Source of the DNA: a virus
Strand: one strand, 5' to 3'
DNA length: 26,513 nt
Virus record (IMG/VR): IMGVR_UViG_3300031857_001175
Coordinates: 1 to 26,513 of that record
The notes under the pieces are model-generated. The model did no database searches. It was not told the origin of the DNA and worked only from the letters and a program-made list of their open reading frames with translations. Shown here piece after piece: positions 5,872 through 23,168 of this stretch. The translations under genes and the position numbers were made by a program. Positions within the stretch are counted from its first letter, which is position 1; every line of letters begins with the position of its first letter.

Positions 5872-7197
5872 ATGATATTGGATACTACAGAAGAAGTTAC
5901 GCAAACGTTACGGTACATCAAAGATCGAAAGACATTGCTGGTACCGGTATACTGTAGTCCAACGAATCACACTGCCATCAATCACTTATGTGCAATATAC
6001 ATTTATACAGAAGATGCAGTAGAACGCATGATTCCTATTCGTCATACTGAACAACTAAGGGGCTTCCCTGAACATGTAAGTTCTTTTTTGGCATTGGAGA
6101 ATATCTTTGTTCACGACAAGAAGCGATGGCTACAAACGGGAGGTAATGGGGCTGTATGGGATGTAAAAACATTGTGGTGGTATACTTACGGTGAAGCATA
6201 TGATGAATCACATTATCCAACCGCAGCTCATCAATTTTATTGGAGACGTCACGCTACATTAGATGCAGTTAATTGCATTGTTCCATTGCAACAACACATG
6301 GCAATGTGTCAAAAGATACGTCACTATGCTTGGCCAATGTGTATGAATGCGCAATTATCAGAATCATACTTACAATTCAATGCCGTATATCCAGAAGTAT
6401 TTGCTCGTATTGAATCTGCAGGCTTACAAGTAACGCCAGATTTTCGTATGCCGGAATTGATACATGATGGTCGAGTATATTCAAACTATCATTATCATAC
6501 AACGACAGGTCGACCTAGTAATGCATATCGAGGTTTCAACTTTGCTGCAATGAATAAAGATGATGGAACCAGAGCAGCATTTTGTAGTCGCTTTGAACGA
6601 GGTGCATTAGTAGAAATGGACTTTGATTCATATCACGTACGGCTTATTGCAAAAATGATTGGTTATGATTTACCCACATCATCAATACATGATTATTTAG
6701 GTCAATTTTATTTTGATGTTGCAGAATTAACTGACACGCAGCGTGAAGAAAGCAAAGCAATAACATTCCGTTTGTTGTACGGAGGTATTGATCGAGAATT
6801 CTTAAGCATACCATTTTTTGCACAAGTAAATGATTTTGTATACAAAATATGGAATAAATGGAAACGCACAGGTTGTGTTGAAACGCCTGTATTGAAACGC
6901 AATATCTGCAAGGATGGTATGCAGAATATGACTGCTAATAAATTGTTTAACTATTATTTACAAGCAGTAGAAACCGAAGTATCAGTTCTTAAATTGAAGC
7001 AAGTGCAAGATTTGATTGAACCATATGCAAGTTGCATGATACTTTATACATATGACTCCATACTTTTCGATGTAGATTATGCAGAAGCAAAGGAGTTATT
7101 ACCTCAAATCAAACAAACGTTGGAACAAGGCAACTTTCCAGTAAAAGTGAAGGTTGGCGATACATACGATGAGATACAACATATTTATATTAAATGA
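5872..7197 (+). CDS. Divergent family A DNA polymerase-like protein
   Basis: This 441-aa protein carries the palm and fingers motifs of family A polymerases in order. A TTGR-containing stretch (residues 211-214) is followed by motif A at 247-260 (VEMDFDSYHVRLIA, with D250 and R257). Motif B is at 291-304 (REESKAITFRLLYG, with R291, K295, F299 and Y303 at canonical spacing), and motif C at 392-400 (YTYDSILFD, with D395). The two metal-binding Asp are kept. The usual Glu of motif A is His255, and the HDE of motif C reads YDS. Residues about 20-110 (an IPIRHTE segment, FVHDKKRWL, WDVKTLWWY) resemble a degenerate 3'-5' exonuclease fold without its acidic residues. The C-terminus looks complete. 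No Shine-Dalgarno is evident. Its stop overlaps the HNH endonuclease start. The window also holds a family B polymerase, so this one may be a repair or accessory enzyme; activity is unproven. Confidence 0.75.
   Translation: MILDTTEEVTQTLRYIKDRKTLLVPVYCSPTNHTAINHLCAIYIYTEDAVERMIPIRHTEQLRGFPEHVSSFLALENIFVHDKKRWLQTGGNGAVWDVKTLWWYTYGEAYDESHYPTAAHQFYWRRHATLDAVNCIVPLQQHMAMCQKIRHYAWPMCMNAQLSESYLQFNAVYPEVFARIESAGLQVTPDFRMPELIHDGRVYSNYHYHTTTGRPSNAYRGFNFAAMNKDDGTRAAFCSRFERGALVEMDFDSYHVRLIAKMIGYDLPTSSIHDYLGQFYFDVAELTDTQREESKAITFRLLYGGIDREFLSIPFFAQVNDFVYKIWNKWKRTGCVETPVLKRNICKDGMQNMTANKLFNYYLQAVETEVSVLKLKQVQDLIEPYASCMILYTYDSILFDVDYAEAKELLPQIKQTLEQGNFPVKVKVGDTYDEIQHIYIK
7181..7196 (+). promoter_or_regulatory. 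ATATTTAT-type motif before the HNH gene
   Basis: ATATTTATATTAAATG ends on the HNH start codon and lies inside the last codons of the polymerase-like gene. It resembles the 17-nt element shared by the two GIY-YIG genes (17898 and 22547). Its TATTTATA core (7182-7189) is the reverse complement of the T4 late-promoter consensus TATAAATA, so direction is uncertain. AT-richness makes chance similarity possible. Confidence 0.25.
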
Positions 7198-7748
7198 ATT
7201 ATCAGTATATATATCAACAATTAATTAAATCTTCGAAAAATAAAAATCGAATAAAGAATGATACTGATTCATATTATGAAAAACATCATATTGTTCCGAA
7301 ATGCCTAGGCGGCAATGATGATAATGATAATTTAGTATTACTTACCGCAAGAGAACATTTCATAGCTCATAAATTACTTTGTGAAATTTATCCAGATAAT
7401 GATAAATTACATTATGCATTATGGAGGATGATGAATCCGCAAAGTAAACGACATAAACGAAGTTATAATATTAGTTCATATGATTATGAACGAAGAAAAA
7501 AATTACAACAAGAACAAGTTAGAAAATTAGGTTTATCTAATAAAGGTCGTAATATCAGCGAAGAACAAAAAATTAAAATAAGAGAAAAACGTAAATTACA
7601 AATAATAAGTGAAGAAACTAAAACTAAGATAAGTAATACCTTAAAAAATAAACCAAAAAATAAAATAACATGTCCACATTGTAAAAAAACCGGTGGCGAG
7701 CCTCAAATGAAACGTTTTCATTTTTCTAATTGTAAAAATATGAATTAA
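7194..7748 (+). CDS. HNH homing endonuclease with C-terminal zinc finger
   Basis: This 184-aa free-standing homing endonuclease begins on the ATGA that ends the polymerase-like gene. The HNH core is at residues about 28-60: EKHHIVPKCLGGNDD (H31, H32), N46 in DNDNLVLLTAREH, then H55 and H59. A NUMOD3-like, Lys/Arg-rich DNA-binding segment follows (about 115-160, EEQKIKIREKRK and ETKTKISNTLK). A C-terminal CxxC...HxxxC finger (CPHCKKTGGEP to HFSNCK) closes the protein. Such enzymes nick or cut a cognate site in relatives lacking the gene and spread by repair. The abutment to the polymerase gene suggests its target lies at that gene's 3' end. A matching finger occurs in the GIY-YIG enzyme at 22569. 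Being a mobile gene, it may be absent in close relatives. Confidence 0.85.
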   Translation: MNYQYIYQQLIKSSKNKNRIKNDTDSYYEKHHIVPKCLGGNDDNDNLVLLTAREHFIAHKLLCEIYPDNDKLHYALWRMMNPQSKRHKRSYNISSYDYERRKKLQQEQVRKLGLSNKGRNISEEQKIKIREKRKLQIISEETKTKISNTLKNKPKNKITCPHCKKTGGEPQMKRFHFSNCKNMN

Positions 7749-7762
7749 CTTTTTATCATTTG

Positions 7763-7779
7763 ATATTTATTAATAAAAT
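7763..7779 (+). promoter_or_regulatory. ATATTTAT-type motif between HNH gene and next gene
   Basis: ATATTTATTAATAAAAT lies in the 46-base gap before the gene at 7795. It is one of six copies of ATATTTAT that I found at or just after gene ends. It could be a late-type promoter for the next gene, which has no clear Shine-Dalgarno. This copy lacks the full TATTTATA core. Confidence 0.25.
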
Positions 7780-7794
7780 AAAAACTATTTCTTT

Positions 7795-9060
7795 ATGAAC
7801 ATTGACTTAATTTTAACAGAATGGTGTTTTCGATTGCCTAAAGGTTATCCTACATGTGCTAAAGATTACAAAATATTATACGATGTCTTAATAGAGACTG
7901 CAAATATAACATCTAATCAAGCTCAACAAATTGTAGAACGAGCACAACGATTAAGTGAACAATCTACAGATTCTATATCACAAACATCTCAACAAGAAGA
8001 TAATAGTTCTATTATTGAACAAATAACTTCAATTGGTTTACCTAATGAAGTAAATATACAAATTTTATCTATATATAGATCACTCTCCGAAGATGCAAAG
8101 CGAGAATTTAATAAAAATTTTAGGGTACATTCAATTGAATCATTTGTGCAAGAAGGATGGAAAGCATTTGCAAATTTCTTTTTAGTAAATATCGGCGGCG
8201 CACGAGGTGGAATGGGTAATGGTGAAGTATCAATACTATTAGGCGTTAAAGACTCAAAACCAGGCGGCACTGAATATCATGATATAGTTATGCCAAATGG
8301 TCAATGGGAAGTTAAAGAATTAGATTCAGGTAAGTTTGACCCCGCTAAAGAAGGTGTAGCTACTAGATTTAAATTAACGGAACGAATTCGAGAATTTTAT
8401 AAAGATATCGTGTTGCCATTTAAAACGATCGGAGATCCATATACATATTTAAAACATATGGTTAATCCTGAATCAGCCGAATCTCTTAAAAAATTAATAA
8501 TGATATTTGAAACACGATTCATTGAAAGTATTGAAGATAGCAAATTATCTGGCGGAATGGAATGGAAGAAATCTGCATTTCATAATTGGTATGAAGGTTT
8601 CAAAGAATTACACGAAATATTTTATCAAACTGAATTAGATAGTGACGTTAAAGATACTCGTTTAACTGTTGCCGCCGGCGGCGAAACGCAATCATATTGG
8701 ATATCAGATGCAGATGCTGAAAAAATTAAATTAGCTGCTGGTGAAGAAAATCCTGCAGGAGTACGAATTGGAGAACCAATTGATAATATTAATACTAATG
8801 CAGCTATATGGTTTAAACGCGTAGAACGAAATTTGTTTATTAAAGAACCTAAAGACTTTGTTTTTGAATTAACTTCTATTAAAGATAATTTCTTTAAAGA
8901 AATTTTAGGATTGATTTATTATAATAAAAGAAATCCACAGCCTCATATAGCTAATCCTGAAGCATTTGTAATTGAATCGGTATCACAAGGACGATATAGA
9001 TTTGTATTACGTTCGGTACCATCATCTCAAAACTACCCATATCTAGAACAACAAGGATAA
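7795..9060 (+). CDS. Unknown protein with a possible PD-(D/E)XK nuclease-like core
   Basis: This is a 421-aa protein with no cysteines outside its N-terminus and no membrane segment. Residues 1-50 open with ILTEWCFRLPKGYPT and a helical stretch; 55-75 is a Ser/Gln-rich linker. The region 134-190 has GGARGGMGNGEVSILLGVKD, then a HDIVMPNGQWEVKELDSGKF segment. E144, D163 and E172-x-K174 are spaced as in PD-(D/E)XK nucleases (helix Glu, strand Asp, then ExK). The rest is mixed alpha/beta with no motif I know. The ATG lacks a strong ribosome site, so the start is the first ATG after the HNH gene. It sits between the endonuclease and the putative head-protein genes. Either a virion-associated nuclease or an unrelated structural protein would fit. 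The nuclease idea is an inference from a short motif. Confidence 0.6.
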   Translation: MNIDLILTEWCFRLPKGYPTCAKDYKILYDVLIETANITSNQAQQIVERAQRLSEQSTDSISQTSQQEDNSSIIEQITSIGLPNEVNIQILSIYRSLSEDAKREFNKNFRVHSIESFVQEGWKAFANFFLVNIGGARGGMGNGEVSILLGVKDSKPGGTEYHDIVMPNGQWEVKELDSGKFDPAKEGVATRFKLTERIREFYKDIVLPFKTIGDPYTYLKHMVNPESAESLKKLIMIFETRFIESIEDSKLSGGMEWKKSAFHNWYEGFKELHEIFYQTELDSDVKDTRLTVAAGGETQSYWISDADAEKIKLAAGEENPAGVRIGEPIDNINTNAAIWFKRVERNLFIKEPKDFVFELTSIKDNFFKEILGLIYYNKRNPQPHIANPEAFVIESVSQGRYRFVLRSVPSSQNYPYLEQQG

Positions 9061-9063
9061 TCA

Positions 9064-9450
9064 TTGAAAACACAACTACTTTGCACATTCGCACATAGGT
9101 CAGATTTAAACATAGTAACGGAATATATACAGCAAAGTTACATTATACCAGAACGCAGAATATTTGTATTTGCAAATGCAGAATCTGCAGATAATTTGTA
9201 TTGCACATACAATGCAGATGCTGGCACTCAAAGAGGTCAAAATACAATTAGCATCCACCGCAAAAAAGAAACTAATACATTATATACGGTTAATGCACTC
9301 AATGAAATTATTAGAGCCGTAAACAATGGTGTATTAGATAAAACATTCCAACTTGATTGGAGCATATATCAAAATTCATTTATCCTCACAGACGAAGCAG
9401 GATACCGCGTAATAGATCTTGTATTCTTCAAGAAAATCGTTTGGAATTAA
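9064..9450 (+). CDS. Hypothetical protein, TTG start
   Basis: This is a 128-aa protein starting on TTG, three bases after the previous stop, with AAGGATAATCA upstream providing a ribosome site at good distance. There is no ATG near the N-terminus in this frame, and residues from MKTQLLCTFAHRSDL onward look like a natural opening. It has alternating beta and helix, with a conserved-looking ISIHRKKETNTLYTVNALNE segment in the middle and a hydrophobic strand at the end (YRVIDLVFFKKIVW). No signal peptide, membrane helix or catalytic motif is seen. I have the impression that similar small proteins occur in T4-like marine phages as conserved hypotheticals. No function is proposed. Confidence 0.65.
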   Translation: MKTQLLCTFAHRSDLNIVTEYIQQSYIIPERRIFVFANAESADNLYCTYNADAGTQRGQNTISIHRKKETNTLYTVNALNEIIRAVNNGVLDKTFQLDWSIYQNSFILTDEAGYRVIDLVFFKKIVWN

Positions 9451-9452
9451 CT

Positions 9453-10163
9453 ATGATTAAATTAAAAAACTTATTAGCAGAAAGTATGCGTAGATTCAAA
9501 ACTAAGAATCTAAACGAAGATTCTGATCAAAACAATAACGGTTATCCAGATGATACAGAAAACTCATCTCTTGCAAATGATCCGATATTAAAACAATATG
9601 GATTTACGGGAACTAGTAAGCCAGATAAATTAAAAGGAAAACTAGTTTCTAGTTCACATCTAAAAGGAGTAACTACTATAGCATATTTCGATAATAGTAA
9701 CTGGAATCTACCTGAAAATCCATATGATAGAAATGAAATCAAACACAAAATTCATACTACTTTAGCAAATGCATTATCAAAATACGTAGGCGGAAAACTT
9801 AAAAGTATTTGGGATTCAGATAATGCCGATTTACCACCTAATATAACTGCACTTGCAATGATTGGCGAAAAAGCCCCGATTATCAAAATAATCAACGGGA
9901 GTGTACATAAAAATTTAAAGCATACGTCTTTTGTTGATGATAGAAGTGTTCACAAAATGTCTCGAATAGTTTTCGGTACTTATAATGGTAAACCATTTGA
10001 ATTAGAAACTATCGATGGAATGACGGTGATTCAAGTAAATGGCGAAGTAATTGATGATGAAGATCTCAAATATCAAGAAATTTTAGATGCAGTTATCGCC
10101 GGCGGCTATGAATTATATACTAGAATGTTGCACAAGAAAGATTACGAAATCAATCCTAATTAA
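9453..10163 (+). CDS. Putative internal head protein with capsid-targeting-like leader
   Basis: I chose the ATG at 9453 (MIKLKNLLAESMRRF). The open frame extends upstream to 9357, but that part lies within the preceding gene and reads like shadow sequence, whereas MIKLK matches the start of the next gene. The product is 236 aa. Residues 1-10 end in LAE followed by Ser, which fits the (L/I)xE cleavage rule of the T4 prohead protease gp21. T4 internal proteins carry a 10-residue leader, MKTYQEFIAE. Residues 12-20 (MRRFKTKNL) are shared with the next gene. A DSDQNNNGYPDD segment (about 24-35) looks like a calcium-binding loop of EF-hand or thrombospondin-3 type. The remaining ~190 residues form an unrecognised alpha/beta domain. 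A head-packaged protein is inferred, not shown. Confidence 0.65.
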   Translation: MIKLKNLLAESMRRFKTKNLNEDSDQNNNGYPDDTENSSLANDPILKQYGFTGTSKPDKLKGKLVSSSHLKGVTTIAYFDNSNWNLPENPYDRNEIKHKIHTTLANALSKYVGGKLKSIWDSDNADLPPNITALAMIGEKAPIIKIINGSVHKNLKHTSFVDDRSVHKMSRIVFGTYNGKPFELETIDGMTVIQVNGEVIDDEDLKYQEILDAVIAGGYELYTRMLHKKDYEINPN

Positions 10164-10179
10164 ATTTTTAATAGAATTG

Positions 10180-10196
10180 ATATTTATTTATATAGG
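10180..10196 (+). promoter_or_regulatory. ATATTTAT-type motif before the gene at 10204
   Basis: ATATTTATTTATATAGG stands in the 40-base gap, its AGG doubling as part of the ribosome site (TAGGATAAATTATG). A weak 6-bp hairpin (10182-10187 with 10197-10202) would place the AGG in its loop. This copy lacks the full TATTTATA core. Confidence 0.25.
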
Positions 10197-10203
10197 ATAA
10201 ATT

Positions 10204-10449
10204 ATGAAAAAACTAGAACACATCTTAGCAGAAAATATGCGTCGTTTTAATACAAAAAATTTACATGAAAATGAAGAATCAGATAAACGTTTTGCAGAAT
10301 ATGTTTATAAAAGTTATTTAGAAGATGCCGTACAAGAATTTTCTGCAGCTGGCGTTGCATATGCAATTATGTTAGATACAGATTCAAAAATTCTACCAGC
10401 ATATATTAAACATATCATGAAAAAATATTATGATATAAACTTAAAATAA
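10204..10449 (+). CDS. Small putative internal head protein with the same leader
   Basis: This is an 81-aa protein. It begins MKKLEHILAENMRRFNTKNLHE, sharing the layout of the preceding gene: a 10-residue leader ending in LAE, then MRRFxTKNLxE. The rest is short and helical (RFAEYVYKSYLEDAVQEF, then a basic end KHIMKKYYDINLK) without cysteines. T4 internal proteins are small, basic, packaged with DNA and processed by gp21 at (L/I)xE; size and leader fit that class. The ribosome site AGGATAAATT is good. Two neighbouring genes with the same leader but unrelated bodies is what a targeting peptide, rather than simple gene duplication, would give. The function of the mature 71 residues is unknown. 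Confidence 0.6.
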   Translation: MKKLEHILAENMRRFNTKNLHENEESDKRFAEYVYKSYLEDAVQEFSAAGVAYAIMLDTDSKILPAYIKHIMKKYYDINLK

Positions 10450-10571: not shown

Positions 10572-11354
10572 ATGGCACTTAACCTTGACGCTATCAAAGC
10601 GAAACTTAATCAATTAAACAAAACCGATGACAAAAAAAGCAACATCTGGAAGCCTGAATCTGGCAAGACACGTGTTCGCATCGTCCCTTACGTTCATCGC
10701 AAAGAAAATCCATTTCTAGAATTGTATTTCCATTATGACATTGGTAAGAAAACCATGTTGTCACCTATCACCTTCGGAAATGCAGATCCAATTGTAGAGT
10801 TTGCTGAGAAATTGAAAAAGACCGGAGACAAAGAAGATTGGCTCATGGGTCGTAAAATTGAACCGAAAATGAGAACATATGTTCCTGTTATCGTTCGTGG
10901 TAAAGAATCTGAGGGAGTTAAATTCTGGGGCTTTGGTAAAACCATTTATACGGAATTGCTTTCTATTATTGCAGATGCTGATTATGGTGATATTACCGAC
11001 TTAATGAATGGCCGTGATATTGATGTAGAATTTACACCAGCAGAAGGTGCAGGTTCATATCCTAAGACAGCAATTCGTGTTAAACCAAATACGCAACCTG
11101 CAACAGAAGATAAAGAAGTTGCTCAGAAGATTATGAATCAACCACAAATTACTGATTTATTTCCAGAGCCGTCATTTGACGAATTGCAACAAGCATTAGA
11201 AGAATGGATGAATCCAGAAAATGCAGATTCAGATGTTGACTCAGAAGAAGAAACTTCTACACCTGCAGCAGCACCAGCAACAACATCAGCATCAAAACCA
11301 GCAGCTACAAAAGTAGACTCAGTTGCAGATGCATTCAATGATTTATTCAATTAA
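10572..11354 (+). CDS. Single-stranded DNA-binding protein, gp32-like, zinc site lost
   Basis: This is a 260-aa protein. It has a basic N-terminal segment (KAKLNQLNKTDDKKSNIWKP), then a core beginning with TRVRIVPY and ELYFHYDIGKK, as in T4-superfamily gp32 OB-fold proteins. The tail is acidic and low-complexity (about 218-260, SDVDSEEE, then Ala/Pro/Thr-rich, ending VADAFNDLFN), matching the gp32 acidic tail that recruits replisome partners. Where gp32 proteins typically have L-C-P ... C-P-x-C-E zinc ligands, this protein reads MLSPITFGNADPIVEF (about 62-77); it contains no cysteine at all, though His54 is kept. It is followed 13 bases later by uvsX, a partner of gp32 in T4 recombination. 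The family call rests on motif layout and gene order. Confidence 0.8.
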   Translation: MALNLDAIKAKLNQLNKTDDKKSNIWKPESGKTRVRIVPYVHRKENPFLELYFHYDIGKKTMLSPITFGNADPIVEFAEKLKKTGDKEDWLMGRKIEPKMRTYVPVIVRGKESEGVKFWGFGKTIYTELLSIIADADYGDITDLMNGRDIDVEFTPAEGAGSYPKTAIRVKPNTQPATEDKEVAQKIMNQPQITDLFPEPSFDELQQALEEWMNPENADSDVDSEEETSTPAAAPATTSASKPAATKVDSVADAFNDLFN

Positions 11355-13620: not shown

Positions 13621-14976
13621 ATGACAGATAAATTAAGTGAATACGGATTTGGATTTCAAGTCAAAGTCATAGCAGCATTATTTACGGATAGAATATTCTT
13701 ACAACAAATTGCAGATATCATTCAACCTGATTATTTCGAATCAGATTCAAATAGTTGGTTACTTGAGGTTATATTAGAACATTTTAAAGAATATAAAACA
13801 CCTCCATCGAAAGATGTACTTAAAGTAAAAATAACTGAGATTGAGAATGATATTCTCAAAACTGCAATATTAGAACAATTGAAAGAAGTATTCCGATACA
13901 TGGAATCAGATGATCTTTCATTTGTTAAAGATGAGATTCTTAAATTTTGTAAGAATCAAGAAATTAAACGAGCAATCATGGATTCGGTTACCTTGCTTAA
14001 AATGGGTAACTATGATGAAATTAAATCTAAAATGGATAGCGCTATGAAAGCTGGTGCTGATACAAATATTGGATTAGATTATATTAATGATGTAGCATCT
14101 CGTTATAATGAAGCAGCACGACATACAATCACAACTGGCTGGGATGTTATTGATGATTTAATGGACGGCGGATTAGCTCCAGGCGAATTAGGAGTAGTAA
14201 TGGCACCTGCAGGTATTGGTAAATCTTGGATGCTTATTAATATTGGTGCTAATGCAGTCAGAGCCGGTAAGACAGTTATACATTATACATTAGAGCTTAA
14301 CGAAAACTATGTAGGACAACGTTATGACTCAGTATTAACCGGTATAAACGCACAAACTCTAAAACATCATCAAGACACTGTCGAGGAAAAGATGCGTTCT
14401 CTAACGGGTAATTTGATTGTTAAATATTATCCAACTAAATCAGTTGGCATAATGGCACTCAAAGCTCATATTGAAAAAACCATAATGCAAGGCAAAACAC
14501 CAGATCTTATCATTGTGGATTATGGTGATCTTTTAAAGGTAAATACTAAGAAAGACAAACACGAAGCATTAGAAGATTTATATGAAGAACTTCGAGGAAT
14601 GGCGGGAGAATATAAAATTCCAGTTTGGACTGCATCGCAGGCAGGACGTAGTGCATTGGAGGAAGATATTATCGAAGCAGATAAAATTGCATCTTCATAT
14701 GGTAAAGTGATGGTTGCAGATTTCTTGATGTCATTGTCACGCAAAGTCGAAGATAAGATGTCAGGCACTGGTAGAGGCCACGTTATTAAGAATCGTTTCG
14801 GTCCAGATGGCATAACATTACCAAGTAAGATTAATACAAATAATGGTCAATTTCAATTCTTTGAACCACAAACTACCCAGGGTAAACAAACTACACAAGT
14901 TATGAAAACCGGAGAGAACTTAATGAAGAAAAATTTAGCTCAAAAGTTCAAAGATCTGGGTGGACAATTTGGATAA
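13621..14976 (+). CDS. Replicative DNA helicase, DnaB/T4 gp41-like
   Basis: This is a 451-aa protein. An N-terminal helical domain (residues 1-145) is followed by a RecA-like helicase core opening with GWDVIDDLMDGGLAPGEL, as in the DnaB family. Walker A is APAGIGKS (195-202), the catalytic Glu is in HYTLELNE (E225), and Walker B is DLIIVDYGDLLK. A later WTASQAGRSAL segment matches the sensor motif, and SLSRKVEDK with HVIKNRFGPDG matches the C-terminal arginine-finger/beta-hairpin region. It would unwind the fork as a hexamer with the phage polymerase and primase. No primase domain is fused and no separate primase is in the window. No Shine-Dalgarno is visible upstream. A hairpin terminator follows. 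Confidence 0.9.
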   Translation: MTDKLSEYGFGFQVKVIAALFTDRIFLQQIADIIQPDYFESDSNSWLLEVILEHFKEYKTPPSKDVLKVKITEIENDILKTAILEQLKEVFRYMESDDLSFVKDEILKFCKNQEIKRAIMDSVTLLKMGNYDEIKSKMDSAMKAGADTNIGLDYINDVASRYNEAARHTITTGWDVIDDLMDGGLAPGELGVVMAPAGIGKSWMLINIGANAVRAGKTVIHYTLELNENYVGQRYDSVLTGINAQTLKHHQDTVEEKMRSLTGNLIVKYYPTKSVGIMALKAHIEKTIMQGKTPDLIIVDYGDLLKVNTKKDKHEALEDLYEELRGMAGEYKIPVWTASQAGRSALEEDIIEADKIASSYGKVMVADFLMSLSRKVEDKMSGTGRGHVIKNRFGPDGITLPSKINTNNGQFQFFEPQTTQGKQTTQVMKTGENLMKKNLAQKFKDLGGQFG

Positions 14977-14980
14977 AATC

Positions 14981-14997
14981 ATATTTATATAAAATGA
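14981..14997 (+). promoter_or_regulatory. ATATTTAT-type motif after the helicase gene
   Basis: ATATTTATATAAAATGA lies five bases after the helicase stop and just before the terminator hairpin. A rightward promoter here would make only a very short RNA. Read leftward, its TATTTATA (14982-14989) is a perfect T4-type late consensus pointing antisense into the helicase gene. Confidence 0.2.
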
Positions 14998-15001
14998 AAT
15001 G

Positions 15002-15024
15002 GGAAGGAATCATCCTTCCTTTTT
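15002..15024 (+). terminator. Rho-independent terminator after the replication operon
   Basis: A 7-bp perfect GC-containing stem, GGAAGGA (15002-15008) with TCCTTCC (15013-15019), encloses the loop ATCA and is followed by five T (15020-15024). In this AT-rich window it stands out clearly. It separates the ssb-uvsX-exonuclease-helicase block from nrdB-nrdA. Confidence 0.88.
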
Positions 15025-15029
15025 CTATC

Positions 15030-15056
15030 TAAAAAAACTAAGTTATTAACAATTTA
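15030..15056 (+). promoter_or_regulatory. Leader element before nrdB
   Basis: TAAAAAAACT (15030-15039), seven bases, then TAACAATTTA (15047-15056) repeats the two halves of the element before the ssb-like gene (10472-10490). It lies just past the terminator, where transcription of nrdB must either restart or read through. The ribosome site AAAAAGGACATAG follows. Confidence 0.25.
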
Positions 15057-15068
15057 AAAAGGACATAG

Positions 15069-16064
15069 ATGCCAAAACTTTTTGAGAATCGAATCCCGTT
15101 TAAGCCATTTGAATATCCAGAATATTACAATGAAGGATGGCTAAAACAAGCACAAGCATTTTGGTTGCATACAGAAATTCCAATGCAAGGCGATATTAAA
15201 GATTGGAATGAAAATTTACAACAACATGAAAAGAATTTGGTAGGAAATATCCTTTTAGGTTTTGCTCAAACTGAATGTGCAGTATCAGATTACTGGACTA
15301 ACATGGTAACTAAATGGTTCCCTAAACACGAAATCAAACAAATGGCAATGATGTTTGGTTCTCAAGAAACGATACATGCAACAGCATATTCATACTTAAA
15401 TGAAACTCTAGGTCTTGAAGATTTTGCGGCATTTTTACATGAGCCTGCAATTGCTGAGAAATTTGAGTTTTTAACTGCAACTACTGCAGAATGGACTTAT
15501 GAAGATTTAGCATCAAATCCAGAAGCAAGAAAAGAAGTAGCTCGTTCATTAGCAATCTTTTCTGCTTTTGCCGAAGGGGTATCGCTTTATTCATCTTTTG
15601 CAGTACTTTATTCATTTCAAATGCGTAACATGTTGAAAGGCATTGGCCAACAAATGAAATGGTCTGTACGCGATGAATCGTTACATTCTAAAATGGGATG
15701 TCAACTTTTCCGTCATATGTATGAAGAATTTCCAGAACTCAAAGATGCAGTTCAATCAGATGTAGAAGAGGCTGCAACATTGATGGTACAAATGGAAGAA
15801 CAATTTATTGACAAAATGTTCGAGCAAGGTGATTTGGAAAATCTAAAAGCTGAAAACTTAAAAGACTTTATCAGAAAAAGAGCCAATGAAAAATTGCATG
15901 AGCTTGGATATCAATCTATTTTTAATTATAATGTAAAATCAGCGGAAGAGTTAGATTGGTTCTATCACTTAACCGGCGGGCTTACACATACAGATTTCTT
16001 TGCAGTACGTCCAACTGATTATTCAAAAGCAAATGAAGGCGAAGATTGGTCTGATTTATGGTAA
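15069..16064 (+). CDS. nrdB: Class I ribonucleotide reductase, small (beta) subunit
   Basis: This is a 331-aa protein with the full diiron site of class I RNR beta chains. The ligands are E69 (QTECAVSDYW), E100 and H103 in SQETIHATAYSY, E169 (FSAFAEGVSLY), and E203 with H206 (VRDESLHSKM). The radical tyrosine is Y107, four residues after H103, as Y122 is in E. coli NrdB, so a tyrosyl-radical enzyme is expected. It generates and stores the radical passed to NrdA for reducing ribonucleotides. The gene has a good ribosome site (AAAAAGGACATAG), follows a terminator, and overlaps the nrdA frame by 7 bases. Slightly short of the E. coli protein but typical of phage versions. Confidence 0.93.
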   Translation: MPKLFENRIPFKPFEYPEYYNEGWLKQAQAFWLHTEIPMQGDIKDWNENLQQHEKNLVGNILLGFAQTECAVSDYWTNMVTKWFPKHEIKQMAMMFGSQETIHATAYSYLNETLGLEDFAAFLHEPAIAEKFEFLTATTAEWTYEDLASNPEARKEVARSLAIFSAFAEGVSLYSSFAVLYSFQMRNMLKGIGQQMKWSVRDESLHSKMGCQLFRHMYEEFPELKDAVQSDVEEAATLMVQMEEQFIDKMFEQGDLENLKAENLKDFIRKRANEKLHELGYQSIFNYNVKSAEELDWFYHLTGGLTHTDFFAVRPTDYSKANEGEDWSDLW

Positions 16065-17885: not shown

Positions 17886-17935
17886 TATAACATATACATA
17901 TTTATAATAAAGGAATAAAATATGTATGTGTTATA
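17886..17935 (+). promoter_or_regulatory. Start-codon-sequestering hairpin with embedded promoter-like motif
   Basis: Bases 17886-17900 pair with 17921-17935 over 15 consecutive positions (one U-G). The loop of 20 bases (17901-17920) holds the Shine-Dalgarno AGGA, and the ATG at 17922 is in the stem. The motif ATATTTATAATAAAGG (from 17898) begins in the last bases of the 5' arm and contains TATAAT (17903-17908). RNA started just downstream would lack the 5' arm and expose the ATG; read-through RNA from nrdA would keep it closed. T4 I-TevI is controlled in this manner. Pairing is seen; function is inferred. Confidence 0.6.
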
Positions 17936-18575
17936 TGAAATCAAAAATGTTATTAACAATTGGCGATATATTGGTTGTACTAAAAATTGGACCGATCGTA
18001 AACAAGAACATATTCGAACATTAAATCAGAATACGCATTGTAATAAACATTTGCAACGAGCTTGGAATAAATACGGTTCTGATAAATTTATCTTTTCAAT
18101 TACTGAAACTGTACAATCAAAAGAAGAAATGTATAAACGCGAAATAGAATTAATTAGTGAAACTATAAATTTATATAATATTGTCAAAGGTGGAAATGGA
18201 GGTGATTTAATTACAATTCATCCAGAATATGATCGTATTATCGAAAATATGAAAGCCGCTCGTAAAAAAATGTATAAAGAAAAGCCCGAAGAAAGATTAA
18301 AACGCAATTGTTTCTTAAATCTATCAGAAGAAGAATATACAGAAAGATGTAAACTCTGGTCAGAAGTAAAAAAAGGTCCAGGCAACGGTAGATTTAAACA
18401 TGATAAAAAAATTGCACAAATTAACAAGAAAACTAATGAAGTGATTAAAATATGGGAATATTCGAGATTACTTGATTACAATGGTTTTAATTCAAAATAT
18501 GCAAGATGGGTAGCAGAAGGAAAACCTCAATTCAAAAGTCATAAAGGTTACTTATGGCAATACGTTGATATGTAG
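17922..18575 (+). CDS. GIY-YIG homing endonuclease
   Basis: This is a 217-aa free-standing homing endonuclease. The GIY-YIG domain fills residues 1-90: MYVLYEIKN (the GIY strand), YIGCTKN, then a RKQEH segment, a KHLQRAWNKYGSDKFIF helix, the catalytic Glu in KREIELISE, and YNIVKGG. A GGNGGDLITIHPE linker follows. The C-terminal ~60 residues (IAQINKKTNEVIKIWEYSRL to SHKGYLWQYVD) look like a NUMOD1/IENR1-type DNA-binding repeat module. It lies between nrdA and folE; endonucleases of this kind near nrd genes are well known in T4-like phages. Its start is enclosed in a hairpin. Unlike the enzyme at 22569 it lacks a C-terminal zinc finger. Confidence 0.88.
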   Translation: MYVLYEIKNVINNWRYIGCTKNWTDRKQEHIRTLNQNTHCNKHLQRAWNKYGSDKFIFSITETVQSKEEMYKREIELISETINLYNIVKGGNGGDLITIHPEYDRIIENMKAARKKMYKEKPEERLKRNCFLNLSEEEYTERCKLWSEVKKGPGNGRFKHDKKIAQINKKTNEVIKIWEYSRLLDYNGFNSKYARWVAEGKPQFKSHKGYLWQYVDM

Positions 18576-18625: not shown

Positions 18626-19333
18626 ATGACAGATAAGCAAAGACAAAACTTAGAACTAGTAAAACCTGGTTTCGCTAATGGTATTTCTACGCAATTAGCT
18701 AATAAACAAGCTATTGAAGGTCCTGATGCTAGATTGACTGATGATGAGAAACAGCATATTATTAAAATGGCTGCATTCTATTATGGTGAATTTCTCAAAG
18801 CATTAGGCGTAGATTGGGAAAAAGATCCTAATTCAGACAATACTCCTAAACGAGTAGCAAAGGCATATGTTAATGATTTATGGAAAGGTCGTTATGAGCC
18901 AATGTCAGATATTACTTCATTTCCAAGTGATGGTTATGACGGTATTGTATTCGAAGGCGGCATTCCATTAACTAGTATGTGTTCACATCATCATCAAACG
19001 ATTGAAGGACTAGTTCATATTGCATATATTCCAGCAGAGAACGGCAATGTAGTTGGATTAAGTAAATTAAATCGTGTTGTAGAACACTTTGGTAGACGAG
19101 GTGCAATTCAAGAACAATTAACAGTTGCAATTCAACACGCAATAGATGAACTTATTACTGACAATAAAGGTGTTGCTGTAATGATTGAAGCAACGCATAA
19201 TTGTGTATCTTGTAGAGGTGTTAAGCATCGTGGTGCATCAATGAAAACAGCAAAATTATCAGGAGCATTCTTAGAAGATGGTAATGCTCGTTCAGAATTT
19301 TATCAATTTGTGAAAGGTTACACTCATGGCTAA
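18626..19333 (+). CDS. folE: GTP cyclohydrolase I (FolE)
   Basis: This is a 235-aa protein. The zinc site is C119 with H121-H123 in TSMCSHHHQTIEG, and C193 in THNCVSCRGVKHRG. The GLSKLNRVVEHFGRRGAIQE and EQLTVAIQHAIDEL segments are the core FolE signature. The N-terminal ~40 residues are an extension; the DNTPKRVAKAYV stretch (72-83) matches the conserved entry helix. It converts GTP to dihydroneopterin triphosphate, the first step of both folate/pterin and 7-deazaguanine synthesis. queD overlaps its end by 8 bases and queE follows, pointing to the deazaguanine path. The ribosome site GAAAGAGTTACAAT is moderate. Confidence 0.93.
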   Translation: MTDKQRQNLELVKPGFANGISTQLANKQAIEGPDARLTDDEKQHIIKMAAFYYGEFLKALGVDWEKDPNSDNTPKRVAKAYVNDLWKGRYEPMSDITSFPSDGYDGIVFEGGIPLTSMCSHHHQTIEGLVHIAYIPAENGNVVGLSKLNRVVEHFGRRGAIQEQLTVAIQHAIDELITDNKGVAVMIEATHNCVSCRGVKHRGASMKTAKLSGAFLEDGNARSEFYQFVKGYTHG

Positions 19334-19787
19334 ATTTCAGTCAACAAAATTATTTGATGGTTATTCTACCTGTTTCCGCCAATGGCGAGCAGATGGTACA
19401 CATTGCAAATTCTTACATGGATATGCAGTATCATTTCGTGTATGGTTCGAAGGCGAATTAGATCATCGCAATTGGGTATTTGACTTTGGCGGTATGAAAC
19501 GAGCTACAACAAAAATTCAAGGAATGAATCCTAAAGATTACTTTGCGTGGTTATTAGATCATACTACAATTGTTGCCATGGATGATCCATATTTACCGCA
19601 ATTTAAACAAATGTATGAAGATGGTATTATTCAATTACGAATTTTAAAAGATGTTGGCTGTGAAAAGTTTGCAGAACATTTATACAACGTAATCAATGAA
19701 TTCTTAAAAGAAGAAACTGCAGGTAGAGTGAAAGCTATTAAAGTAGAAGTATACGAACACGAACGAAACTCAGCAAGTTATGAATAA
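19326..19787 (+). CDS. queD: 6-carboxytetrahydropterin synthase (QueD), variant metal site
   Basis: This is a 153-aa PTPS/QueD-family protein. The catalytic region reads STCFRQW ... HCKFLHGYAVSF: C27 and H31 match the canonical C..LHGH. The first zinc His is replaced by Cys16 (in STCF) and the last by Tyr33 (HGY). DFGGMKRA (53-60), LDHTTIVAMDDP (77-88, with H79) and VEVYEHE (140-146) fit the remaining signature. QueD converts dihydroneopterin triphosphate to 6-carboxytetrahydropterin for QueE. I believe a subfamily with the same FRQW...HGY form occurs in Alphaproteobacteria, so the change need not mean inactivity. It overlaps both folE and the next gene by 8 bases. Confidence 0.85.
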   Translation: MAKFQSTKLFDGYSTCFRQWRADGTHCKFLHGYAVSFRVWFEGELDHRNWVFDFGGMKRATTKIQGMNPKDYFAWLLDHTTIVAMDDPYLPQFKQMYEDGIIQLRILKDVGCEKFAEHLYNVINEFLKEETAGRVKAIKVEVYEHERNSASYE

Positions 19788-20163
19788 TATTAATGAAATG
19801 TATGTATCGATCTATGAATATACAGGTAGATCTGCTACACTTAACAATGTAGGTCGCGAAGTAATGGATGCTGCTTTAAAAGAAGGCATCAAAGTCGTTT
19901 GGCGAGATTTACCTCCAGATATGAAGCGCGAAAACTTCACACAGGTTGCAACATATCCTAGATCATTTCTAAATAAATTTTTTGGCAATGATGTTAAATA
20001 CACAATGATAGATCCAGTAACTTTAAACATGTTGTTTGATAAACTAACTGCATTAGAAGAAAAATTTAACGACCTAATAAAAAAATTAGATAATAAACAA
20101 GAAGAACAGTTAATAACAAAATTAGATCATGTCAATACCGATGATGATGAATTACCTTTTTGA
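19780..20163 (+). CDS. Unknown small protein with SSB-like acidic C-terminal tip
   Basis: This is a 127-aa protein lying between queD and queE and overlapping queD by 8 bases. Residues 7-70 look globular (YVSIYEYTGRSATLNN, VGREVMDAALKEGIKVVW, then YPRSFLNKFFG). Residues 80-117 form a likely coiled coil (LFDKLTALEEKFNDLIKKLDN). The protein ends in NTDDDELPF, closely matching the acidic tip (DDD(I/L)PF) by which bacterial SSB recruits repair and replication partners. No OB-fold signature is evident, so it is not called an SSB. Its position suggests translational coupling with the que genes. ATG at 19798 (MYVSIYEY) is an alternative start. Function unknown. Confidence 0.6.
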   Translation: MNNINEMYVSIYEYTGRSATLNNVGREVMDAALKEGIKVVWRDLPPDMKRENFTQVATYPRSFLNKFFGNDVKYTMIDPVTLNMLFDKLTALEEKFNDLIKKLDNKQEEQLITKLDHVNTDDDELPF

Positions 20164-20170
20164 GCCTATT

Positions 20171-20947
20171 ATGAAACCAGGAAGAATTACAGATTACGCA
20201 AAAACATTACCAATAGTAGAATTGTATCGTTGTGTACAATCTGAAGGCAGTCGATTTGGTCGCCCTACTATTGCAGTTAGAACTACAGGTTGCACTCATC
20301 GTTGCTATTTCGGCGAAGGAGGCTGGTGCGATTCTTGGTATACAAGTATCCATCCAGAAAAAGGTACTTTTTGTTTTAATGATATCATCAAGATTTATGA
20401 TGAGAATCCACATATTACAGAAATGATGTTAACTGGTGGTTCTCCGACTATGCACCCTGCATTAGTAAATGAATTAACTCATTTTGCAAATGAAAGAGAT
20501 ATCATTATCACGATTGAGACAGAAGGATCACATTTTATTGAAACTGATTATCCTATAGATCTTATTTCTCTTTCTCCTAAATTTGCAAATAGCGTTCCTG
20601 TTATAGGTGTTGCTACTCCGCAAGGTACAATTACGGATGAAAAAATGATTCGTCAACATAATAAGCATCGTCTTAATCATGAAGCTATTAAATCAATGTT
20701 ATCTTTTCATTCAGATTATCATTACAAACCAGTTTGGGATGGCACTGAAGAAAACTTAGCAGAGATTGAAGCATTTCGAATGTATCATAATATTCCAAAA
20801 TGGAAGACATTTATTATGCCTGCAGGCGATACAAGAGATGAATTAATTAAAATGTATCCAATTGTATTTGAAATGTGTGCTGAAAAGGGTTATAATATGA
20901 CTGGACGAGATCATATCATTGCATTTGATACTAAACGAGGTGTATGA
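20171..20947 (+). CDS. queE: 7-carboxy-7-deazaguanine synthase (QueE), radical SAM
   Basis: I chose ATG 20171 (MKPGRITDYA) rather than 20129, since the latter begins inside the previous gene and its extra 14 residues look like shadow sequence. The product is 258 aa. The iron-sulfur ligands are C41, C45 and C53 (TGCTHRCYFGEGGWCDSWYT): a C-x3-C-x7-C spacing, longer than the classic C-x3-C-x2-C. Insertions at this position are known in QueE. ELYRCVQSEGSRFGRP before it and MLTGGSPTMHPAL after it fit QueE. It turns 6-carboxytetrahydropterin into CDG, which QueC would convert to preQ0. folE and queD lie just upstream. QueC is not in the window. Confidence 0.88.
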   Translation: MKPGRITDYAKTLPIVELYRCVQSEGSRFGRPTIAVRTTGCTHRCYFGEGGWCDSWYTSIHPEKGTFCFNDIIKIYDENPHITEMMLTGGSPTMHPALVNELTHFANERDIIITIETEGSHFIETDYPIDLISLSPKFANSVPVIGVATPQGTITDEKMIRQHNKHRLNHEAIKSMLSFHSDYHYKPVWDGTEENLAEIEAFRMYHNIPKWKTFIMPAGDTRDELIKMYPIVFEMCAEKGYNMTGRDHIIAFDTKRGV

Positions 20948-21213
20948 GTATTATCAATTGGGAATTACATCAAAAGTTAAATAAAAATAACATAATTGAC
21001 ACGGAGTATAAATATATGAAACGAAAAACACCATTAACTAGACCAAAGCGTAAAAAGAATCATTTAAGTATGGTAACGTGGAATCAATTGACATATGAAA
21101 CAGTTAATATGCCAGCATATTTAGCGGATGAGTATGTTCGTCATTTTGATTTAACTAAAGTACCAACTACATCTGAATTACAATTTTGGATTTCACAACG
21201 AGATAGAAAATGA
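20944..21213 (+). CDS. Hypothetical small basic protein
   Basis: The frame opens with an ATG overlapping the queE stop (ATGA), giving 89 aa. An inner ATG at 21016 (MKRKTPLTRPKRKKN, 65 aa) has a better ribosome site, GGAG nine bases upstream, and gives a strongly basic N-terminus; it may be the true start. The rest is a short helical/beta region (HLSMVTWNQLTYETVNM, AYLADEYVRHFDL). No known motif. The TATAAATA at 21007-21014 equals the T4 late consensus but lies directly before the inner ATG. No function is proposed. Confidence 0.5.
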   Translation: MSIINWELHQKLNKNNIIDTEYKYMKRKTPLTRPKRKKNHLSMVTWNQLTYETVNMPAYLADEYVRHFDLTKVPTTSELQFWISQRDRK

Positions 21214-21269
21214 ATTGGACAGTAACAACGACATTTGGCAATGTCAATATTAATTATATCATAAAATGA
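21210..21269 (+). CDS. Possible 19-aa leader-like peptide
   Basis: MNWTVTTTFGNVNINYIIK fills the gap between two genes. Its ATG overlaps the preceding stop (ATGA at 21210) and its stop overlaps the thioredoxin ATG (ATGA at 21266), so ribosomes could pass through all three by coupling. It may only be a coupling device; no Shine-Dalgarno is seen. Low confidence because it is very short. Confidence 0.3.
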   Translation: MNWTVTTTFGNVNINYIIK

Positions 21270-21514
21270 AACAGATATTATACTTCACAGCAACATGGTG
21301 CGGTCCATGTAAAGTACTTAAGCCGAAAATCCAGGCTATGCAAAGTCAATTACCGATAACCATCTTAGATGTAGATACGAATTCAGAAGCAGTTGGAAAA
21401 TATTCAATTCGCAATGTACCTACAATTATTGTTACTAATGGTAGCAACGAAATAGGTCGATTAGTTGGCAATAACATCACACAAGAACGAATAGTAGAAT
21501 TATTTAATCAATAA
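21266..21514 (+). CDS. Thioredoxin-like protein
   Basis: This is an 82-aa protein with the thioredoxin active site WCGPC at residues 11-15 (FTATWCGPCKVLKP) after a first beta strand, and a cis-proline strand NVPTIIV. It is shorter than E. coli thioredoxin (~108 aa), in the size range of phage T4 NrdC-type glutaredoxins and minimal thioredoxins; the CGPC signature is thioredoxin-type. It could reduce the phage ribonucleotide reductase (C-terminal CxxC of NrdA), a role phage thioredoxin/glutaredoxin proteins often have. Start overlaps a 19-aa frame. No own ribosome site is clear. Confidence 0.88.
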   Translation: MKQILYFTATWCGPCKVLKPKIQAMQSQLPITILDVDTNSEAVGKYSIRNVPTIIVTNGSNEIGRLVGNNITQERIVELFNQ

Positions 21515-22543: not shown

Positions 22544-22579
22544 TAGATATTTATAATAAAGGATCATTATGATTATCTA
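22544..22579 (+). promoter_or_regulatory. Start-codon hairpin with embedded promoter-like motif
   Basis: Bases 22544-22549 pair with 22574-22579 (6 bp), then one U-U mismatch, then 22551-22557 pair with 22566-22572 (7 bp, one U-G). The 8-base loop, AAAGGATC (22558-22565), holds the Shine-Dalgarno; the ATG at 22569 is in the stem. The motif ATATTTATAATAAAGGA (22547-22563) is the same 17 bases as at 17898-17914 and makes up most of the 5' arm. A transcript starting just past it would lose the arm. Confidence 0.55.
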
Positions 22580-23168
22580 TAAAACAACTAATTTAGTTAA
22601 TGGAAAATTTTATATAGGACAAGATTCTAAAAATAATCCAAATTATTTAGGCAGCGGAACTTTGCTGAATAAAGCAATTGAAAAATACGGTCGAGAACAT
22701 TTTGTTAAAGAAATTATTGAATATTGCGAATCTGAAGAACAATTAAATTCTCGAGAAATATTTTGGATATCTGAATTAAAACCATTATATAATATAGCAA
22801 AAGGAGGCTCAGGTGGCGATACTATATCAAATCATCCGGAACGAGCTTTAATTATCGAAAAACTAAAACAACGACCTATACGTTATTGGACGGAAGAGCA
22901 AAAAAATAAGCAACGTGGAGATAAAAATCCAGCAAAGCGTATTGAAGTAAGAGAAAAAATAAGTAAATCAAAAATTGGAAAATCTAGACCAGATCAATTA
23001 GGCGAATTAAATTCTGCAAAACGATTAGATGTACGAGAAAAAATTCGTTTAAAACTAAAAGGAATTCCGAAAAATCGAATACAATGTCCATTTTGCGAAA
23101 AGGATGGCCAGGCATCTAATATGTATAGATGGCACTTTAACAATTGTAAATTTAAAACAAAAGAATAA
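22569..23168 (+). CDS. GIY-YIG homing endonuclease with zinc finger
   Basis: This is a 199-aa free-standing homing endonuclease. The GIY-YIG domain spans residues 1-85: MIIYKTTN, NGKFYIGQDS, YLGSGTLLNKAIEKYG, catalytic Glu in NSREIFWISEL, YNIAKGGSGGD. A NUMOD3-like middle (KNPAKRIEVREKISKSKIG and a second copy LNSAKRLDVREKIRLKLKG) follows. A C-terminal finger (IQCPFCEKDGQ to HFNNCK) closes the protein. The finger is like that of the HNH enzyme at 7194. The gene lies between the phosphoribosyltransferase and the family B polymerase, one base before the latter's start. Target site would be expected near the polymerase gene (inference). Confidence 0.88.
   Translation: MIIYKTTNLVNGKFYIGQDSKNNPNYLGSGTLLNKAIEKYGREHFVKEIIEYCESEEQLNSREIFWISELKPLYNIAKGGSGGDTISNHPERALIIEKLKQRPIRYWTEEQKNKQRGDKNPAKRIEVREKISKSKIGKSRPDQLGELNSAKRLDVREKIRLKLKGIPKNRIQCPFCEKDGQASNMYRWHFNNCKFKTKE

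Follow-up and report, generated by a model that had tools for sequence, protein, structure and literature searches.

What does a short N-terminal peptide do when two adjacent viral genes share it and their remaining sequences are unrelated? The question arises in a 26.5 kb fragment (26,513 nucleotides; hereafter the window, meaning the whole stretch of DNA that was analysed) of an uncultured T4-like virus, which encodes a gp32-like ssb, UvsX, a gp41-like helicase and a family B polymerase. In T4, ten residues of IPIII are enough for head targeting, with positions 4 and 7 serving targeting and 8 and 10 processing, and gp21 cleaves after L/I-X-E (PMC9026906). That such capsid-targeting sequences (CTSs) let T4-like phages package varied proteins is an idea already published (PMC9026906), and an initial annotation of the window, made from the letters alone, likened the two N-termini to them. 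Our answer, which we consider highly probable, is that the leader is a capsid-targeting propeptide of a T4-like phage that directs proteins to the head and is cut by an S77 protease after (L/I)xE, and that it consists of two parts. The features of the locus are as follows (slashes here and below mark LxE ends).

7763..7770, + strand: ATATTTAT, before the 421-aa gene that heads the gene run with leader 1
7795..9060, + strand: conserved 421-aa gene upstream of the cassette slot, starting MNIDLILTE/W
9064..9450, + strand: conserved 128-aa gene with a TTG start, left border of the slot
9453..10163, + strand: leader protein 1, 236 aa (ATG ORF with homologs)
9453..9482, + strand: CTS-like core of leader 1, MIKLKNLLAE, its LxE ending at residue 10 (compare T4 MKTYQEFIAE and MAKINELLRE)
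9483..9518, + strand: second leader block of gene 1, SMRRFKTKNLNE, the second LxE ending at residue 22
9519..10160, + strand: predicted mature body 1, DSDQNNNGYPD..., without known family or fold
10180..10187, + strand: ATATTTAT, putative late-promoter-like motif, 24 nt before leader gene 2
10204..10449, + strand: leader protein 2, 81 aa (ATG ORF; homologs L201-L206 without the second block)
10204..10233, + strand: CTS-like core of leader 2, MKKLEHILAE
10234..10269, + strand: second leader block of gene 2, NMRRFNTKNLHE, precisely what the homologs lack
10270..10446, + strand: predicted mature body 2, NEESDKRF..., a small helical domain in the predicted structure
10572..11354, + strand: gp32-like ssb gene, right border of the slot

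Two unrelated proteins share one leader

ORF 9453-10163 starts MIKLKNLLAESMRRFKTKNLNE and ORF 10204-10449 starts MKKLEHILAENMRRFNTKNLHE. Common to both is a 22-residue leader, M(x)6LAE-[SN]MRRFxTKNLxE, which occurs in just these two copies in the window. Leader 1 (9453-9518) and leader 2 (10204-10269) are identical at 15 of 22 residues, 6 of the 15 with different codons, and at 49 of 66 nucleotides. Their alignment scores 76, whereas the best of 1000 shuffles scores 35; this confirms that these adjacent genes have a leader in common, as the initial annotation had it. The bodies align with a score of 32, which is equalled in 12% of shuffles, and are therefore unrelated; the earlier view that MRRFxTKNLxE is shared ahead of unrelated bodies is thus borne out. 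The location had been given correctly, but the shared block ends at 10269, with the second LxE, and not at 10265. Homologs of leader protein 1 (65-69% identity) all carry the same leader or a decayed form of it.

The leader is widespread in viral contigs

A search for the leader in related phages had been suggested as a check, and it returned at least 100 distinct leader-bearing proteins. A degenerate DNA pattern for AExMxRFxxKNL matched at least 119 stretches of viral contigs with at least 137 ORFs, and among the matches listed an ATG lies 4-12 codons upstream in 131 of 137 ORFs. After reduction to unique proteins these fall into at least 54 body clusters, all from uncultured T4-like phages and with the leader at the extreme N-terminus; across the 54 clusters among the matches listed, lengths run from 82 to 700 aa.

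Residues left free in the search pattern provided an independent test of conservation. Among the 100 unique proteins listed, L precedes AE in 99, N follows it in 98 and the final E of KNLxE is present in 85; counted by body cluster (54 listed), L or I stands at -1 of AE in 54/54 and the E of the second LxE is found in 47. Across bacterial and archaeal genomes totalling 257 Gb, a slightly stricter pattern gave 4 matches, none of them N-terminal. We rejected these as true leaders, since three fall within CheR-like proteins and one lacks the peptide in frame. Because many viral ORFs stand against 4 stray matches in 257 Gb, the signal is judged to be far beyond chance. Searching 50,697 annotated phages by tblastn with both window proteins and the leader yielded no relative, and a full-text search of papers for the leader string and for CTSs in metagenomes found nothing.

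Two LxE sites and an optional second block

Both window leaders have LAE at residues 8-10, in agreement with the (L)xE at residue 10 of the initial annotation. That site is the first of two: a second LxE occupies residues 20-22 of the long leader, and the 12-residue block NMxRFGxKNLxE sits between them. Natural variants separate the two parts. Homologs of body 2 have the first site alone, as MIKLKNILKE/NEESDKRF (L201, L202) or MIKLKNLLAE/SEESDKRF (L204-L206), and the window counterpart, ...LAE/NMRRFNTKNLHE/NEESDKRF, differs from them by exactly the 12 residues between the LxE sites. A systematic search revealed three more clear swaps (L326/L007, L339/L098 and L057/L038), and at least four body families thus occur both with and without the second block, with the junction directly after LxE. 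In L057/L038, which belong to the MLRF class, the long leader extends to a later LxE (YLME/QTQV) and the junction lies there; an additional downstream LxE is present in 39 of 44 MLRF/MIRF leaders versus 5 of 56 MRRF leaders.

From its sequence, the propeptide of this leader group looks two-part, with an optional second block that is probably also removed from the protein. Swaps with junctions at LxE predict mature N-termini of DSDQNNNGYPD and NEESDKRF, not SMRRF and NMRRF. The previously proposed cut after LAE keeps its site but is probably incomplete, since variant bodies start after the second LxE.

The extreme conservation of the block, and the fact that the first site is the best match to T4 IPII and IPIII, would fit a CTS that is cut once, after LAE, leaving NMxRFGxKNL on the mature protein for a role such as DNA binding or ejection through the portal. 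We regard such a single cut as unlikely: bodies that lack the block begin immediately behind the first LxE, an LxE terminates the block in 85 of the 100 listed proteins, and the MLRF class extends to yet another LxE. Removal of both parts is the reading that we prefer. NMxRFGxKNL must still have some role, because it is conserved beyond the needs of a simple cleavage site, and the sequences suggest that it is a lineage-specific part of the head address and not a mere spacer.

A sister leader and short leaders in related phages

The NMxRF leader is absent from Flavobacterium phage immuto. Four immuto proteins with unrelated bodies instead carry a leader of the type MENFDLKKFLVE/NKLTxNSxLLKE, which we found in viral contigs on 76 unique proteins in 39 body clusters, the LxE glutamates again being 12 apart. 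The NKLT leader repeats the plan of LxE, 12 residues and LxE, and shares the slot, the S77 protease (encoded in 8 of 9 NKLT-type contigs) and the unrelated bodies; it differs in amino-acid sequence, and no case of the two leaders together occurs in 16 large contigs. Because architecture, slot and protease are alike despite different sequences, the two leaders appear to share a function. In one NKLT-type contig (G014), the immediate neighbours of a leader gene are the protease gene, whose end it overlaps, and the scaffold gene.

Short leaders were counted in six contigs with the NMxRF proteins left out. These contigs contain 36 cases of (L/I)xE whose E is residue 10, where 8.2 are expected (P = 7e-13), mostly of the form M[IK][RK]LKxLLxE, and by sequence these short leaders look like plain CTSs. 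Only the sharp peak at residue 10 was taken as evidence; LxE enrichment over residues 6-12, which is weak (1.4-2.4x), was left out. We counted it against the CTS reading that LxE is a weak motif and that N-termini of T4-like proteins are generally LxE-rich. Some proteins with a short leader (MI[RK]LKxLLxEI) are paralogs with related bodies in 2-3 copies per genome (G002 15028-16060 and 103396-103920; G003 20290-21412). Further short-leader proteins are scattered through the contigs, about 10-15 per 160 kb by eye (G001 14467-15647, G002 151181-151945 and others).

Two immuto proteins (MW353175 25061-25456 and 111675-112139) carry a third leader, MKKQILSEQF[KR]RMQ[FK]LAGIITES (ILSEQFRRMQKLAGIITES). 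It is similar to the C-terminal end of immuto's own scaffold protein, IISEVSEQVSRWQKLAGIIK (125626-126867), with QKLAGII identical; the scaffolds of G001, G002 and G004 were also examined. Judged by this likeness, leaders of the third type may mimic the scaffold for targeting.

Comparison with T4, and the protease

The T4 genome gives the leaders MKTYQEFIAE/A (IPII and IPIII) and MAKINELLRE/S (gp24). The window leaders have L4 and L7 or I7, where IPIII has Y4/F7 and gp24 has I4/L7, and their E10 and hydrophobic residues 4 and 7 are those required in T4 IPIII. The annotated likeness to the T4 CTS thus fits in every feature that can be checked in sequence: an N-terminal position, (L/I)xE at residue 10, hydrophobic residues at 4 and 7, and unrelated bodies. 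On such sequence features, the leader is real and widespread, and is probably a variant of the T4 CTS.

The nearest parallel is with T4 IPI, IPII and IPIII (and with Alt, which is also processed by gp21): unrelated, rapidly changing proteins headed by a short N-terminal leader, a 10-residue core ending in (L/I)xE with hydrophobic residues 4 and 7, and, here in related genomes, an S77 protease with T4-like scaffold, portal and capsid genes. Unlike in T4, the core here may be followed by a conserved block of 12 residues with a second LxE at its end, the leader is spread over far more proteins and genomes, the bodies are not homologous to those of T4, and targeting and cleavage are putative. Neither window protein matches an internal protein (IPI, IPII, IPIII or Alt) in PHROGs or Pfam. 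The gp24 propeptide also has 10 residues, in a pattern near the MIKLKNLLRE of short leaders, but gp24 is a shell protein whereas the leader proteins are no capsid homologs. Inner head proteins of the giant phages phiKZ and SPN3US likewise include paralogs with identical N-termini and have several cleavage motifs per propeptide (PMC5694885); they differ in the motif (A/S-x-E), in propeptides often longer than 100 residues and in a protease of another family (S80).

The initial annotation had called for a gp21-like protease gene. Five leader-bearing contigs of the NMxRF type (G001, G002, G004, G006 and G007) encode Peptidase_S77 at E 1e-32 to 1e-34, adjoining portal, scaffold and capsid genes, and two of them, G001 and G002, share the cassette slot of the window. 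The window itself, as a 26.5 kb fragment, holds no protease or head gene, and seven other records, shorter or partial, gave no S77 match, which is no evidence that the gene is absent. The leader genes of NMxRF-type contigs do not adjoin the head genes, which we counted against the CTS reading. When the capsid proteins are aligned with T4 gp23, an invariant E57 in the context [LIV]xE/[AS] falls on T4 E65, whose assignment as the gp23 cut site rests on the propeptide length of 65 residues (PMC9026906). Since E57 aligns with E65 in this context, the protease of this phage group very likely has a similar preference for hydrophobic-x-E.

Leader proteins can reach a considerable size, the largest having about 700 aa, as might be expected if the leader were an uncleaved N-terminal interaction tag that recruits proteins to another phage structure, such as the tail, the replisome or an infection compartment. 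This is quite improbable, because the LxE boundaries, the co-occurrence of S77, the site in the capsid protein and the leader gene within a head cluster would all have to be coincidences.

The bodies have no convincing match to known families

Pfam, PHROGs and PADLOC searches of 66 representative leader proteins returned two marginal Pfam matches and one marginal PHROG match, while 60 control ORFs taken from the contigs that carry them gave matches to 41 families in Pfam and 62 in PHROGs. AlphaFold models of both window proteins gave no significant fold match in Foldseek. In the model of protein 2, a small helical domain is predicted and confidence climbs only past the leader; body 1 is poorly predicted. 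By analogy with T4 IPI, anti-defence roles of the bodies are plausible.

Certain leader-bearing bodies are interrelated (one chained cluster has 27 members), and plain gene duplication, with paralogous bodies diverged past recognition and the N-terminus retained, could produce such a pattern. We consider this very improbable as the general explanation, given at least 54 clusters of widely differing length and the occurrence of the same body with different leaders.

A cassette slot between conserved neighbours

Both leader genes lie between the 128-aa gene and ssb. We collected 63 slots through the 128-aa neighbour, independently of the leader. At least one leader ORF is present in 43 of the 63, and leaders account for 62 of 80 slot ORFs (35 long, 27 short). 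Nearly all of the 14 other ORFs start M[IK][KR]LK or are leader variants, and the remainder are HNH genes. The same slot holds proteins with a different leader in the immuto lineage and a protein beginning MQFKQYILGE/S in Microcystis phage Mel-JY01; these comparison loci were mostly fetched by leader and are biased in that respect, whereas the 63-slot set is unbiased.

Arginine at conserved leader residues is encoded by AGA (57), CGA (29), CGT (20), CGG (18), CGC (8) and AGG (5), and because conserved residues show this full synonymous variation, selection acts on the leader peptide. Conservation of the 5' ends as DNA-level elements, whether as a handle for recombination or as a regulatory RNA element in cassette exchange, is hardly credible and was rejected for this codon diversity, even though leader genes sit in an exchange slot beside homing endonucleases and direct repeats (TTAnnnGAAAAT) lie on either side of the block in leader 2.

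Among the neighbours, the product of the 421-aa gene (7795-9060) starts MNIDLILTE/WCFRLPKGYP, with LxE at residue 9 and a late-like motif upstream; from these features it may be another packaged protein. The window also contains folE, queD and queE (18626-20947), and immuto has in addition a gene annotated as DpdA. The three genes suggest a 7-deazaguanine pathway, perhaps for DNA modification, and packaged proteins might interplay with restriction of DNA modified in this way.

A motif upstream of leader and structural genes

Of 99 leader genes, 79 have the octamer ATATTTAT no more than 70 nt ahead of them, compared with 18% of all ORFs. Among homologs of named genes it precedes 27 of 87 structural genes, including sheath, tube and portal, versus one of the 46 in the replication or nucleotide class (Fisher P = 3e-5), and it stands before no replication gene in the window. 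From this distribution we infer that ATATTTAT is a late-promoter-like element. As ATATTTAT(A), it precedes structural and leader genes by 20-35 nt (7763, 10180, 17898 and 22547 in the window; structural genes in G001 and G002). This longer form includes what we take to be the reverse complement of the T4 late promoter TATAAATA, in the orientation opposite to that of T4. The same motif is found just upstream of homing-endonuclease-like genes of the HNH or GIY-YIG type in the window (7194-7748, 17922-18575 and 22569-23168).

Proposed role and implications

Taken together, modularity, LxE boundaries, co-occurrence of the protease in relatives, the upstream motif and the slot are properties of the sequences themselves, and from them we infer packaging, cleavage and ejection of the leader proteins. 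In the proposed mechanism, a leader protein would be made late. Its core, M[IK][KR]LKx[LI]LxE, 10 residues long and equivalent to the T4 CTS, would bind the growing prohead core together with the block. The gp21-family (S77) protease would then cut after each LxE and the leader pieces would depart, leaving DSDQNNNG... and NEESDKRF... as mature proteins that would remain inside the head and be injected into the host along with the DNA. A more specific version, which we hold tentatively and at just under an even chance, is a two-part, lineage-specific head address in which a generic CTS core is joined to a block that must match the cognate core, and by which dozens of rapidly exchanging, uncharacterised protein families are loaded for injection; the address block would be NMxRFGxKNLxE, NKLTxNSxLLKE or, in immuto, the scaffold-end-like QFxRMQxLAGIITE. 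We found no two-part propeptide, natural module swap, lineage-specific block or cassette slot of this kind in the literature searched.

If the proposed role of the leader is right, the leader is a sequence tag for virion-packaged and probably injected proteins of phages that have never been grown, and about 90 protein families (54 NMxRF, 39 NKLT) become candidates for early-acting, perhaps anti-defence proteins. The presence or absence of the block poses the question of what a head address needs past ten residues. Flavobacterium phage immuto, which is in culture and carries the sister leader, makes the role of the CTS testable beyond T4.
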